Source: Bacilli bacterium (lineage in GTDB: Bacteria; Bacillota_I; Bacilli_A; RF39; UBA660). Taken from it: 64,000 nt of DNA. Each line of letters begins with the position of its first letter. Position 1 is the stretch's first letter. Position numbers and translations under genes: made by a program. Shown piece after piece: positions 43,429-57,383 of the stretch. The notes beneath the pieces are model-generated. The model had not been told where the DNA came from, did not search any database, and saw only the letters and a program-made list of their open reading frames with translations. The stretch spans positions 1 to 64,000 of the forward strand of contig JAQUYH010000006.1 of the NCBI GenBank assembly GCA_028691955.1. The letters are read 5' to 3'.

Positions 43429-43800
43429 ATGAATAAAAAAGCATTTACTTTGGTAGAGCTTCTTGGCGTACTAATCATCTTAGGCATCTTAGGGATATTA
43501 GTTTCACAAAGTATTATAAATAGGGTTCAAGAAAGTAATGAAAAAACAGAAGAATTAGCTAAAGATATATTAATATCATCAGCTAGAGACTATGTATACA
43601 ATAACCCTGATGAGTTTCTAGAAACAAAGGATAAAACTTATTGTTTAACCTATGATTATTTAGTCCAAACAATCTATCTAAATGAGGGCATGATTCCTAA
43701 GATAGATAAAGTAAATTATTTAAAATCATATTATATAAGTGTCATTTATAATGGCGTTTCATTTGATTATGATGTTGTTAAAGAATGTACAGCGAATTAG
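43429..43800 (+). CDS. Prepilin-like protein
   Basis: 123 residues with a type IV prepilin N-terminus: KKAFTLVELLGVLIILGILG, where a prepilin peptidase would cut before Phe and leave a hydrophobic assembly helix with the conserved Glu at +5. The rest is a small domain of about 85 residues with two Cys (YCLTYD, ECTAN) that could pair. It follows ftsK by 3 bases, which is unusual. The pilus machinery is not in this window. It may be a pseudopilin or competence-type pilin. Confidence 0.75.
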   Translation: MNKKAFTLVELLGVLIILGILGILVSQSIINRVQESNEKTEELAKDILISSARDYVYNNPDEFLETKDKTYCLTYDYLVQTIYLNEGMIPKIDKVNYLKSYYISVIYNGVSFDYDVVKECTAN

Positions 43801-52329: not shown

Positions 52330-54969
52330 ATGAATTGGCACAGCAAAAGCATTGAAGAAATTTATGGTATTCTAAAATCAACAGAAGATGGTTTAAATAC
52401 TAAAGATGTAAATCAAAAACAAAAAGAATACGGCAAAAATATTATACCAAGTAAAAAAAGAGATACTTTGCCAACCGTTTTTTTTAAACAATTCATTAAT
52501 CCTATTATATATATTTTGGGATTTGCAGCATTTTTTTCTTTAATTATTGGAGAATATGCTGATACGCTATTTATTGCTATAGTTGTTTTGCTAGATGCTG
52601 TTATGGGAGCTTATCAAGAGTGGCAAGCAGAAAAGAGTGCAGAAAGCTTAAAAAAAATTATAAGAGTAGTAACTTCAACACTAAGAAACAATAGCAAAAA
52701 GAGAGTAGATTCTGAACAATTAGTTCCAGGAGATATTATATTTCTAGAGCCTGGTGATAAAGTGCCAGCTGATGCTAGAATAATAGTCTGTTATAATTTA
52801 TCAATAGATGAGTCTTTTTTAACAGGAGAATCAATATCAACAGAGAAGATTCCTGATATAATTCCAGAACCAACATCAATATCCGAAAGAAATAACATTT
52901 GCTATGCTGGATCTACAGTTATGACAGGAAGAGCAAAGTGTATCGTTGTAGAAACAGGTTTAAAAACAGAATTTGGTAAAATAGCTAATGATGTTATTGA
53001 GAAAAAGGATGAAGACACACCCTTAGTAATAAGAATGAGGAAATTTACTAAACAATTAAGTATATTTACTTTTCTATTTTCTGTAGTCTTAATATTCATT
53101 TTATATCTTAAAGGATACATATTAAAAGATATATTCTTTCTTGTAATTGCTCTTGCAGTATCAGCCATACCAGAAGGACTACCAGTAATACTTACAATAA
53201 CACTGTCAATAGTAACTAATAGAATGCTTAAGCGAAATGTTATAGTAAGAAAGCTTAATTCAGTTGAGGGATTAGGTAGCTGTACGGTTATAGCAAGTGA
53301 TAAGACGGGAACGCTAACCCTTAATGAGCAAACACTAAAGGTAGTATTATTGCAAAATAATGTAAAGTACGATATTACTGGCGAAGGATATAATGGAATA
53401 GGTGAAATAGTGCCTACTAATGATGAGGCAAAATGTCAAGAAAATATAAACTTATTAAATGAATTAGCTAAATTAGTAACAATTAATAATGAAGCAACTT
53501 TAGAATACAATGAAAATGTTTGGAAGAGTTCAGGAGATGCTATAGATATAGCCTTATTGTCATTTGCTAAAAAAGTTGGAGTAGTTAATACATATAATGT
53601 CATAGGGAGAATCCCTTACGAATCGGAAAAACAATTTTCCGCAACTTTCTATCAAGACAATGATACAAATTATGTAACAATTAAAGGGTCTTTAGAAAAA
53701 GTACTAAGTTTTTGCCATAAAAAGGACTATAACGAAGTAAAACAAAAACACGATCAATTATCAAAAGAAGGATATCGAATAATTGCTGTAGCAAAAGGCG
53801 AGAAAAAAGATTTTATAGAAAAAATCGGCTATGAAGATAGCGATATATCAAAACTGGATTTTGTTGGCTTACTTGCCTTTATAGATCCAATTAGACCAGA
53901 TGCAGTTAGTGCCATAAAAGAATGCCAAAAAGCAGGTATAAAAGTAGTTATGATTACAGGAGATTATTCATTAACTGCGTCTAAAATTGCATTAGATCTA
54001 AAACTGATAAAAAATGAAAGTGAAGTATGTACTGGCTTGGAATTAGAAGAGTACTTTAATGAGGGACTAGAAAGATTTGACGAATTTGTTAAAGAAAAAA
54101 AGGTCTTTTCCAGAGTAAGTCCAAAGCAAAAATTAGAAATAGTTAATTCATATAAAAGACAAAAAGAATTTGTGGCAGTTACAGGAGATGGCGTTAATGA
54201 CGCACCAGCTTTAAAAGGAGCTAACATAGGAATAGCTATGGGAGACGGTTCAGATGTTACAAAAGATGTTGGAAGTATCATAATAACTGATAATAACTTT
54301 TTATCTATAGTTTCTGGCGTAGAAGAAGGAAGATTCGCTTATGAAAATATAAGAAAAGTAACATATTTACTTATTTCTTGTGCTATATCGGAAGTGTTAT
54401 TTTTCATGTTAGCAATTCTTTTTGATATGCCAGTTCCTTTCCTAGCTATACAACTATTGTGGCTTAATTTAATTACCGAAGGAATTCAAGACACTGCTTT
54501 ATCATTTGAAAAAGGCGAAAAAGACGTTATGAAAGAAAAGCCGAGAAAAACGACTGATAGTCTTTTTGATAAATTATTGTTGGAAGAAACTTTTTTAGCA
54601 GGAATAGTAATGACCATAATTATGTTTATAACGTGGGTGTATTTAAATAAATATTTACAATTAGATATTATTTTATCAAGAAGTTATATAATGTTATTAC
54701 TAGTGATTTTGCAAAACTTTCAAACACTTAACTGTAGGTCTGAAAGAGCTTCTATATTTAAAATACCAATAAAGAATAACTATTTTGTCTTCATCTCAGT
54801 TGTACTTACATTAGTTCTGCAAATTGTAATATCTGAAACAACATTCCTAGACAGTGTTCTAAAAATAGAACCAATTCCGTTTATACACGTTATATATCTT
54901 TTTATATTATCCACACCATTATTAATAATTATGGAATTATATAAAAAGAGGAAAGAAGGTAAAAATTGA
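52330..54969 (+). CDS. P-type cation ATPase (Ca2+-type)
   Basis: 879 residues with about ten membrane helices. The phosphorylated Asp is in SDKTGTLTLN (about residue 324). TGES, ATP-binding KGSLEKV, TGDGVNDAPALKGANIGIAMG and membrane motif PEGLPVILT (SERCA-like ion site) identify a P2A/P2B calcium-type pump. The N-terminal cation_ATPase_N stretch (IYGILKSTEDGLNTKDV) is complete. It should expel Ca2+ or related divalent cations. The stop overlaps the TTG start of the next gene. Confidence 0.9.
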   Translation: MNWHSKSIEEIYGILKSTEDGLNTKDVNQKQKEYGKNIIPSKKRDTLPTVFFKQFINPIIYILGFAAFFSLIIGEYADTLFIAIVVLLDAVMGAYQEWQAEKSAESLKKIIRVVTSTLRNNSKKRVDSEQLVPGDIIFLEPGDKVPADARIIVCYNLSIDESFLTGESISTEKIPDIIPEPTSISERNNICYAGSTVMTGRAKCIVVETGLKTEFGKIANDVIEKKDEDTPLVIRMRKFTKQLSIFTFLFSVVLIFILYLKGYILKDIFFLVIALAVSAIPEGLPVILTITLSIVTNRMLKRNVIVRKLNSVEGLGSCTVIASDKTGTLTLNEQTLKVVLLQNNVKYDITGEGYNGIGEIVPTNDEAKCQENINLLNELAKLVTINNEATLEYNENVWKSSGDAIDIALLSFAKKVGVVNTYNVIGRIPYESEKQFSATFYQDNDTNYVTIKGSLEKVLSFCHKKDYNEVKQKHDQLSKEGYRIIAVAKGEKKDFIEKIGYEDSDISKLDFVGLLAFIDPIRPDAVSAIKECQKAGIKVVMITGDYSLTASKIALDLKLIKNESEVCTGLELEEYFNEGLERFDEFVKEKKVFSRVSPKQKLEIVNSYKRQKEFVAVTGDGVNDAPALKGANIGIAMGDGSDVTKDVGSIIITDNNFLSIVSGVEEGRFAYENIRKVTYLLISCAISEVLFFMLAILFDMPVPFLAIQLLWLNLITEGIQDTALSFEKGEKDVMKEKPRKTTDSLFDKLLLEETFLAGIVMTIIMFITWVYLNKYLQLDIILSRSYIMLLLVILQNFQTLNCRSERASIFKIPIKNNYFVFISVVLTLVLQIVISETTFLDSVLKIEPIPFIHVIYLFILSTPLLIIMELYKKRKEGKN

Positions 54970-57383
54970 AAAAAGGATTTACAATAGTTGAATTATTAAT
55001 GGTTATTGTTTTAATAGGCTTACTTTCAACTCTGATAATACCTAATATAAACAAATTGATTAAAAATTCTGGGACAACCTTATCAGAAGCACAGATAAAG
55101 TCGGTAGAAGATGCGGCTGAAATGTATGCTGTTGACTATCAAGATACATTCGAAGAATTAGATGAATTTACTATTGAGTTAAAACTTTTAAAAGATTTAG
55201 CTTATGTCTCATATGACATAAAAGATATTTCAACAGGAAAATATTACTCGGATAATTCTTTAATTACTTTTAGGAAAGAAAATGGAATATTTAAAGCAAC
55301 CTTCTATCCTGAATATGATACGGAATATGAAAGTGATATAAAATATTCTAAACATATGGTTATTATTAAAGGGGATAATATTTATGCAAACAGTGAAGCC
55401 ATTGATCCTGATAATATTATTCTAATTGGAATTAATGGTGCAATATATGATTCTAATCAATATAATGTTGAAATAACAAGCGCATCATCAACAAATAATG
55501 ATGGTTATGAAACAGTTTCATATACAGTAACAATCATTGAAGATACAGTAACATATATTTATGAAATAGTAAGAGATGAATATGATGAAGCAAGTACAGT
55601 TGGGCCAACATTTACTATAAGTGATATTCAAAATATTAATAAATCAGAATTAACCATCAAAGTAAATATAATTTCAGAAGGTGATGGAATATCAGGCTCT
55701 GCTTATTCATTTGACAACGGAGTGACTTGGCAATCATCAAACTCTAAAGTAGTTACAACATCATTTAATAACACTATTAAAGTAAAAGACACAAATAATC
55801 ACGTTGCTAGTGAAAACCACAGCATTAGTAAGCTAACAATAAATGCTAATGGTGGTATTTGGAATGGTTTAGAAACAAGCAGTTATTATTGGATAAAACA
55901 GGATACTACAAAAAGTATAATAAATCCAATAAAACTAGGCTATACTTTTACAAACTGGAGTGTAACAACGGGAACTGGTACCATTACTGGTGGAATATTC
56001 ACAATGGGCAGCACCGATACAACAATAACCGCAAATTGGGCAGTTAATTCATATAAGCTTACTCTAGATTTAAATGGTGGCACAACATCAGGTGAAACAG
56101 AAATTGAAGTAGAGTATGGAGCAAGTATAGTTTTAACAGAACCTACAAAAGAAGATTATCTATTTAATGGCTGGATAATTATTTTTGGCGAACAAAGTGA
56201 AATAAATGTTAATACATTTACTATGGGGTGTGAGAATGCAGAGGTGCAGGCTACTTGGGAGTTAGACGATCATATATTAGTAGTAGATTCAAATGGCGGG
56301 GAATGGGTTGGAACCACACCACAAAATTTAAGTTATGGTCAAATAGTGACTATAAATAATCCAACAAAAATAGGCTACTCTTTTGTAAGATGGGATATAG
56401 TAGGAGAGGGAAGCAGTATAGATAACACATCATTTACGATGGGAACAAAAGGCACAACTTTAACTGCTGTATGGGATCCTAATCCTTATACTTTAACAGT
56501 TAATTCAAACGGAGGAACATGGAGTGGAACTACACCACAAACGATATTATATGGTTCAACTATTACAATTGAAGATCCTACAAGAACAAGTTATAGTTTT
56601 TTGGGGTGGACTATAAGTGGAAGTGGAAGTAGCATAAATGGCACAACATTCACAATGGGATATGCAAACACTACAATAACTGCAAATTGGGTTTTAACTG
56701 TACAAAGTTTTGCATATACAGGAGGAATTCAATCCTTTACAGTTGCTGCAACAGGAACATACAAATTAGAAGTATGGGGAGCACGAGGTGGTGGCTCTGG
56801 TGCACTTGGTGGTTACTCATATGGCTACAAATCTTTAACACAAGGAACTGCTCTTTATATTGTAGTAGGTGGAACTACATCAGGTGTCTCAGGAGGCTAT
56901 AATGGTGGCGGTTCAACACCAAGTGGAGCTTATGGTGGCGGAGGAGCAACACATATTGCAACTGCTACAGGTGTACTATCTTCTTTAACGTCTAATCGAA
57001 CTGCTGTAATTATAGTTGCTGGCGGAGGCGGCGGGATAAGCGCTTGCTGTGCTGGCGGAACAGGAGGAGGAACAAATGGTGGAAATAGTTCAGGGACTTC
57101 ATATTGGACTGCTAAGTATGCTAGTGGTGGAACACAAACTTCAGGAGGATACAATGTAGTTCTAGGCAGTGCTTATGGTTCATTTGGACAAGGGTCTGCA
57201 TCAACTGGTGCCAATGGCGGAGGCGGCGGAGGCGGCTGGTACGGAGGTGGCGGTGGTACCTGGGGAACAGAAAACTCCGGTGGCGGAGGTGGCTCTGGTT
57301 ACATTGGCGGAGTTACAAGTGGCTCAATGACAAATGGATCACGCAGTGGCAATGGCTATGCTACAATTACATTTATAGAGTAA
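54966..57383 (+). CDS. Prepilin-type surface protein with InlB-like repeats and glycine-rich domain
   Basis: 805 residues. It begins with a prepilin signature (KKGFTIVELLMVIVLIGLLS), then a pilin-like domain to about residue 220, a short Ig-like part, four InlB B-repeat/Listeria-Bacteroides-type repeats (about residues 285-575, each ending TITANW-like), and a C-terminal glycine-rich domain (578-805) resembling the ALK/LTK glycine-rich region. The start is TTG at 54966, overlapping the ATPase stop. It is probably a surface-exposed pilin-like adhesin. The codons in the glycine-rich region (GGN-rich) raise local GC well above the surroundings. Confidence 0.75.
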   Translation: MKKGFTIVELLMVIVLIGLLSTLIIPNINKLIKNSGTTLSEAQIKSVEDAAEMYAVDYQDTFEELDEFTIELKLLKDLAYVSYDIKDISTGKYYSDNSLITFRKENGIFKATFYPEYDTEYESDIKYSKHMVIIKGDNIYANSEAIDPDNIILIGINGAIYDSNQYNVEITSASSTNNDGYETVSYTVTIIEDTVTYIYEIVRDEYDEASTVGPTFTISDIQNINKSELTIKVNIISEGDGISGSAYSFDNGVTWQSSNSKVVTTSFNNTIKVKDTNNHVASENHSISKLTINANGGIWNGLETSSYYWIKQDTTKSIINPIKLGYTFTNWSVTTGTGTITGGIFTMGSTDTTITANWAVNSYKLTLDLNGGTTSGETEIEVEYGASIVLTEPTKEDYLFNGWIIIFGEQSEINVNTFTMGCENAEVQATWELDDHILVVDSNGGEWVGTTPQNLSYGQIVTINNPTKIGYSFVRWDIVGEGSSIDNTSFTMGTKGTTLTAVWDPNPYTLTVNSNGGTWSGTTPQTILYGSTITIEDPTRTSYSFLGWTISGSGSSINGTTFTMGYANTTITANWVLTVQSFAYTGGIQSFTVAATGTYKLEVWGARGGGSGALGGYSYGYKSLTQGTALYIVVGGTTSGVSGGYNGGGSTPSGAYGGGGATHIATATGVLSSLTSNRTAVIIVAGGGGGISACCAGGTGGGTNGGNSSGTSYWTAKYASGGTQTSGGYNVVLGSAYGSFGQGSASTGANGGGGGGGWYGGGGGTWGTENSGGGGGSGYIGGVTSGSMTNGSRSGNGYATITFIE

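Follow-up and report, generated by a model that had tools for sequence, protein, structure and literature searches.

The gene at 54966..57383 (+) of the 64,000-nucleotide stretch analysed here (the window) is a whole modular prepilin gene, as read from its open reading frame and translation together with Pfam and NCBIfam domains. It encodes 805 amino acids plus a stop codon and starts with TTG, 6 nt downstream of a Shine-Dalgarno-like GGAAAGAAGG (54950..54959, +) read from the sequence. Since the TTG and the stop codon of the P-type ATPase gene upstream of it overlap, translational coupling between the two genes is possible. The gene is flanked by this ATPase gene and rplM and lies outside any pilus operon. 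Its counterpart was absent from the site beside rplM in seven relatives (the same-genus genome G001 and six others), which marks it as specific to this lineage. The window also contains a second, small prepilin of 123 aa (43429-43800, +), which directly follows an FtsK-like ORF and scores over the N_methyl cut-off.

Residues 1-24 of the protein (54966..55037, +) form a class III signal. Cleavage is predicted after Gly4 of the leader LKKG, so that the mature protein would begin with FTIVE, with Phe at position 1 and Glu at position 5 of a hydrophobic helix; a short leader ending in Gly, Glu5 and about 21 hydrophobic residues are the signature used to recognise modular pilins. The NCBIfam model TIGR02532 scored 22.2 bits against a cut-off of 16.3, the ComGC pilin model matched residues 2-68 at 6e-10, below that model's full-length cut-off, and Pfam N_methyl fell slightly under its threshold (17.8 versus 21.2 bits). 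Among solved structures in the PDB, geopilin and PilA matched the N-terminus. The prepilin signature proposed in the initial annotation is thus borne out by TIGR02532, the Gly/Glu5 leader and the ComGC similarity. The GspG pseudopilin model also matched (residues 3-59, 2e-9), and this genome has a separate Tad-like cluster at C11:109k with an ATPase resembling TadA, both of which would fit a protein belonging to a pseudopilus or to the Tad-like system instead of a ComGC-type surface pilus. We regard such an assignment as highly improbable, given that the N-terminus belongs to the N_methyl/ComGC type and not to the short Tad/Flp type, that two small pilins of this same type are encoded next to each other at C3:106.9k, and that a stalked subunit of about 800 residues is better suited to a surface filament than to a short pseudopilus.

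Three further segments follow the pilin part. Residues 207-287 (55584..55826, +) form a linker or stalk segment seen in a paralogue alignment, which is about 40-53% identical to paralogues and belongs to no Pfam family. Residues ~288-576 (55827..56693, +) comprise the four InlB-type B-repeats that had been noticed earlier, with four stretches matched by Flg_new (PF09479, 3.6e-19, above cut-off) and four by Flg_new_2 (PF18998). The remaining residues, 578-805 (56697..57380, +), constitute an ALK/LTK-type glycine-rich domain (GRD) placed as a distal head, assigned from PF12810 (ALK_LTK_GRD), a structural model, PDB fold matches and a shuffle control. PF12810 spans residues 595-804 (2.4e-18, 67.5 bits versus a cut-off of 24.5), and both GGGG-rich motifs quoted earlier are found in this C-terminal domain. 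The pilin therefore carries two kinds of domain foreign to pilus biology, Flg_new (four copies) and PF12810. The four repeats, all over cut-off, are shared with the InlB B-repeat or Listeria-Bacteroides repeat proteins (PF09479, PF18998). Unlike internalins, however, the protein has no Pfam match to an internalin LRR and lacks a wall anchor (LPXTG or GW), its C-terminus being ...YATITFIE, and the repeats stand between a pilin anchor and the GRD.

The similarity of the GRD to the ALK/LTK family exceeds what glycine composition gives. With a profile of bacterial GRDs that was built without the window sequence, the window GRD scored 168 bits, whereas none of 1000 composition-preserving shuffles exceeded -20, and the scores were -18 for the reversed sequence and -27 and -52 for two unrelated domains of this genome that are likewise rich in glycine. 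A match by composition alone was rejected on these scores (168 versus -18 or lower), and the resemblance claimed in the initial annotation holds, by the shuffle control as by the PF12810 score. A scan of GTDB contigs with the aligned GRDs of this genome yielded at least 356 confirmed relatives, and 78 loci were kept; 101 full-length GRDs were extracted and 73 of them aligned with the window GRD for modelling. By sequence, the profile of the bacterial GRD alignment matched worm scd-2 at 1.8e-12, ALK at 5e-10 and LTK at 3e-6.

Studies of the GRD in ALK and LTK have treated it as a part of animal receptors. AlphaFold modelled the window GRD poorly from the single sequence (pLDDT 39) and confidently from the alignment with 73 bacterial relatives (pLDDT 95.1, pTM 0.93). 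Structure prediction of residues 578-805, which had been suggested as a check, returned a GRD-like fold: all 21 PDB matches at E <= 0.001 were ALK, LTK or scd-2, and the next match had an E-value of 0.54. The TM-score to these structures was 0.43-0.53 by query length with an rmsd of ~9-11 A, which indicates a core common to the bacterial GRD and ALK/LTK while much else differs. The model thus supports an ALK/LTK-type fold for the window GRD as a partial match (TM-score ~0.5). The likeness to the ALK/LTK GRD (PF12810; PDB 7LRZ, 7NX1, 7LIR) consists of a score above the Pfam cut-off and significant fold matches to that family only; the window protein differs in having no kinase, MAM or EGF-like parts (no Pfam match to a kinase or MAM domain was obtained). 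The glycine-rich stretches are confident in the model and assigned neither helix nor strand, and are therefore compatible with polyglycine helices.

GRDs are widespread in gut Bacilli, in lipoprotein-like proteins of Segatella and in phage tail regions, on many types of carrier. The related loci suggest that the present genome belongs to a Bacilli-like gut lineage. At least about a dozen further GRD proteins at named loci begin with a prepilin signal, as do both GRD proteins of the same-genus genome G001, but most GRDs at named loci sit on other carriers, namely lipoprotein-like, signal-peptide or very large repeat proteins. Viral proteins on contigs L091, L095 and L098 and in BFVD models carry the same domain family (TM-score ~0.75 to the BFVD models), in L095 at a distance of a few genes behind one for a tail tape-measure protein, but they lack the pilin anchor. 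With the whole window protein as query, phage and plasmid records gave weak B-repeat matches only. Since bacteria and phages commonly carry the GRD as a module, the ALK/LTK likeness should not be read as animal mimicry or capture, and capture of the domain from animals is unsupported. A further resemblance is to gp38 of Salmonella phage S16, a polyglycine-rich adhesin (Dunne 2018, as cited in PMC13243192) that uses a glycine-rich helical bundle for host recognition. As S16 gp38 was absent from the PDB fold matches of the window GRD among the matches listed, the resemblance is one of principle and not of family. In the literature searched, no report of bacterial ALK-type GRDs or of this gene's architecture was found.

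Several other features of GRD carriers were observed in the same survey. In two viral contigs (L093:7590-9941, L098:7512-8648 and L098:9264-10388), ALK-type GRD proteins are encoded close upstream of radical-SAM proteins (PF04055); both L098 radical-SAM proteins exceed the PF04055 cut-off, and the one in L093, which contains an intein, falls short of it. This proximity might indicate radical-SAM modification of the viral glycine-rich protein. A second type of leader on GRD carriers, KGFAxTSxLYS-like and without Glu5, occurs at L044:4051-5406 and in L056, L149, L159 and L169; in proteins of this type in the present genome an F5/8C-like domain follows the GRD. In one contig of Segatella paludivivens (NZ_KB890640.1; L099, L110, L129, L168), GRD proteins whose N-termini are lipoprotein-like are arranged in tandem arrays.

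Further genes of the window gene's type exist in this genome. PF12810 is over cut-off in four prepilins, namely the window gene and those at C25:24.9k, C23:41.4k and C23:64.9k, as well as in a protein at C20:4k whose leader lacks Glu5, and it is weaker in two more proteins (C11:137k, C23:62.6k). About 23 prepilin-type ORFs were counted by a DNA pattern and ORF inspection; the pattern alone gave 32 sites versus 8 for a reversed control, and not all sites are prepilins. Other prepilins carry Gly_rich_2, F5/8C-like, Laminin_G_3, BspA LRR_5 or GLUG modules. Four prepilins of ~650 aa with similar leaders and endings (L038:9040-11010, L039:2979-4952, L041:7379-9307, L045:15203-17170) have no Pfam domain except N_methyl and represent a head family without a name.

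Comparison of the pilin genes at the DNA level revealed a mosaic. Nucleotides 1-1268 of the C25 pilin gene are 83% identical to the 5' two-thirds of the C6 pilin gene, after which the C25 gene switches to nucleotides 1462-2405, in the 3' half of the window gene, with 78.5% identity. The N-terminal parts of the window gene and the C6 pilin are only ~20% identical, and the C6 pilin ends in two Gly_rich_2 domains, not a GRD. This combination of a C6 5' part with a window-gene 3' part implies that heads moved between carriers or were replaced, and end-domains thus appear to have been swapped between pilin genes of this genome. The GRDs of the window gene and C25 share 90% protein identity at a dS of ~0.9, and the dN/dS of 0.06 points to strong purifying selection on the domain. 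This conservation between paralogues bears on whether the GRD is a sticky or structural element, serving pilus-pilus contact, biofilm or a passive coat, with glycine segments adding length and stability, and not a specific binder. The presence of GRDs on many unrelated carriers in many bacteria would fit a generic structural module. We nevertheless think this account unlikely, because the GRD is terminal and not internal in the window protein, its sequence is strongly conserved, ALK and LTK bind ligands with their GRD region (complexes 7N00, 7LS0, 7NX0) and the domain is also present in phage tail regions.

The proposed search for assembly ATPases and a prepilin peptidase was successful in part. 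In this assembly of a small-genome uncultured bacterium (1.04 Mb, 26 contigs, 98% complete), a PilB-type ATPase was found at C3:134.9k (424 bits) in addition to the prepilins, but family models detected neither PilC nor PilD, and PilC was not found with a same-genus protein as query either. Two PF00437 matches are over cut-off in this genome, and no retraction ATPase is evident among them. In genome G001, PilD and PilC are adjacent and lie near trmK, rpoD and dnaG (PilC and PilD were confirmed by family; the names trmK, rpoD and dnaG are a reading of the sequences), and PF00482 matches occur in 33 of 40 relatives. For trmK the present assembly has only a 29% partial match, and for rpoD nothing better than a 37% match, in a frame of 277 aa. 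A housekeeping sigma factor is indispensable to a bacterium and must exist here, so the simplest reading is that the rpoD-trmK-pilC-pilD stretch is missing from the assembly. As trmK and the true rpoD, neighbours of PilC and PilD in G001, are missing too, the absence of PilC and PilD is likely an assembly gap. We rejected a true lack of the pilus machinery as the most economical reading, because the missing stretch also lacks these two genes. Of the two outcomes that the initial annotation named as refuting it, a fold unlike the GRD and a genome without pilin export machinery, neither check refuted it.

These results also bear on whether the pilin-like N-terminus serves as a membrane anchor alone and is never polymerised. 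The large size of the protein (805 aa), the failure to find PilC and PilD in this assembly, the lack of an evident retraction ATPase and the leader without Glu5 of the related C20 GRD protein would all fit a simple anchor. Yet the window protein has the canonical Gly/Glu5 signal and ComGC similarity, PilB is present, PilC and PilD are adjacent within the genus with PF00482 common among relatives, and the loss of the true rpoD together with the missing stretch points to an assembly gap. We therefore consider an anchor-only role improbable.

The explanation we favour, as a probable though by no means certain one, is that the window gene codes for a minor type IV pilin of modular build, with a pilin anchor, a B-repeat stalk and a binding head, within a repertoire whose heads have been exchanged. 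The protein would be inserted in the membrane and cleaved after Gly4 by a PilD-type peptidase, and a PilB/PilC machine would polymerise its N-terminal helix into a thin pilus, where the size of the protein makes a place at the tip or close to it probable. The four B-repeats would act as a stiff stalk, as their family suggests, and the C-terminal GRD, with its predicted ALK/LTK-type fold, would bind ligands as the head of the protein, its probable role being adhesion to surface molecules of a host or of microbes. The genome holds a set of such pilins that differ in their heads, and the DNA mosaic supports an exchange of heads between carriers. Against this explanation count the absence of PilC and PilD from the assembly, the position of the gene outside a pilus operon, its restriction to this lineage and the partial nature of the fold match to ALK.

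Modular pilins are already known, with more than 1,200 counted in 264 architectures (PMC8179133). The pilin PilB of Streptococcus sanguinis bears a vWA module that binds host proteins, an experimental precedent for a grafted adhesive module, and its PilC is a modular pilin with a lectin module (PMC8179133). Like these, the window pilin combines a class III signal with a C-terminal domain foreign to pilus biology, and small pilins are encoded elsewhere. In contrast to them, it bears a GRD of the ALK/LTK type as its head, above a stalk of four repeats, and the system comprises ~23 prepilin genes with head exchange between carriers and with PilC/PilD missing from the assembly. The modular pilin with its ALK/LTK-type head is well supported as a variant of this known kind, and the repertoire to which it belongs shows evidence of head exchange. 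By analogy with the S. sanguinis modular pilins (PMC8179133), an adhesin role is plausible, which retains the adhesin part of the host-facing, receptor-binding role first suggested; the likeness to animal receptors should not be taken as a sign of mimicry.

A more far-reaching possibility, which we put forward tentatively and consider doubtful, is combinatorial pilus display in a reduced-genome bacterium: prepilin heads including GRDs would be exchanged as DNA cassettes and vary what the pilus binds, and the GRD would be a head that binds ligands specifically and arose in bacteria or phages, with the same fold in animal ALK/LTK. With a confidently modelled bacterial GRD forming the outer head of a pilus protein, ligand binding by this fold becomes testable in simple proteins from bacteria. 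A 1-Mb genome with about 23 prepilins of varied heads, together with direct DNA evidence of exchange, would widen the idea of modular pilins from adhesins fused one at a time to a repertoire that is shuffled.
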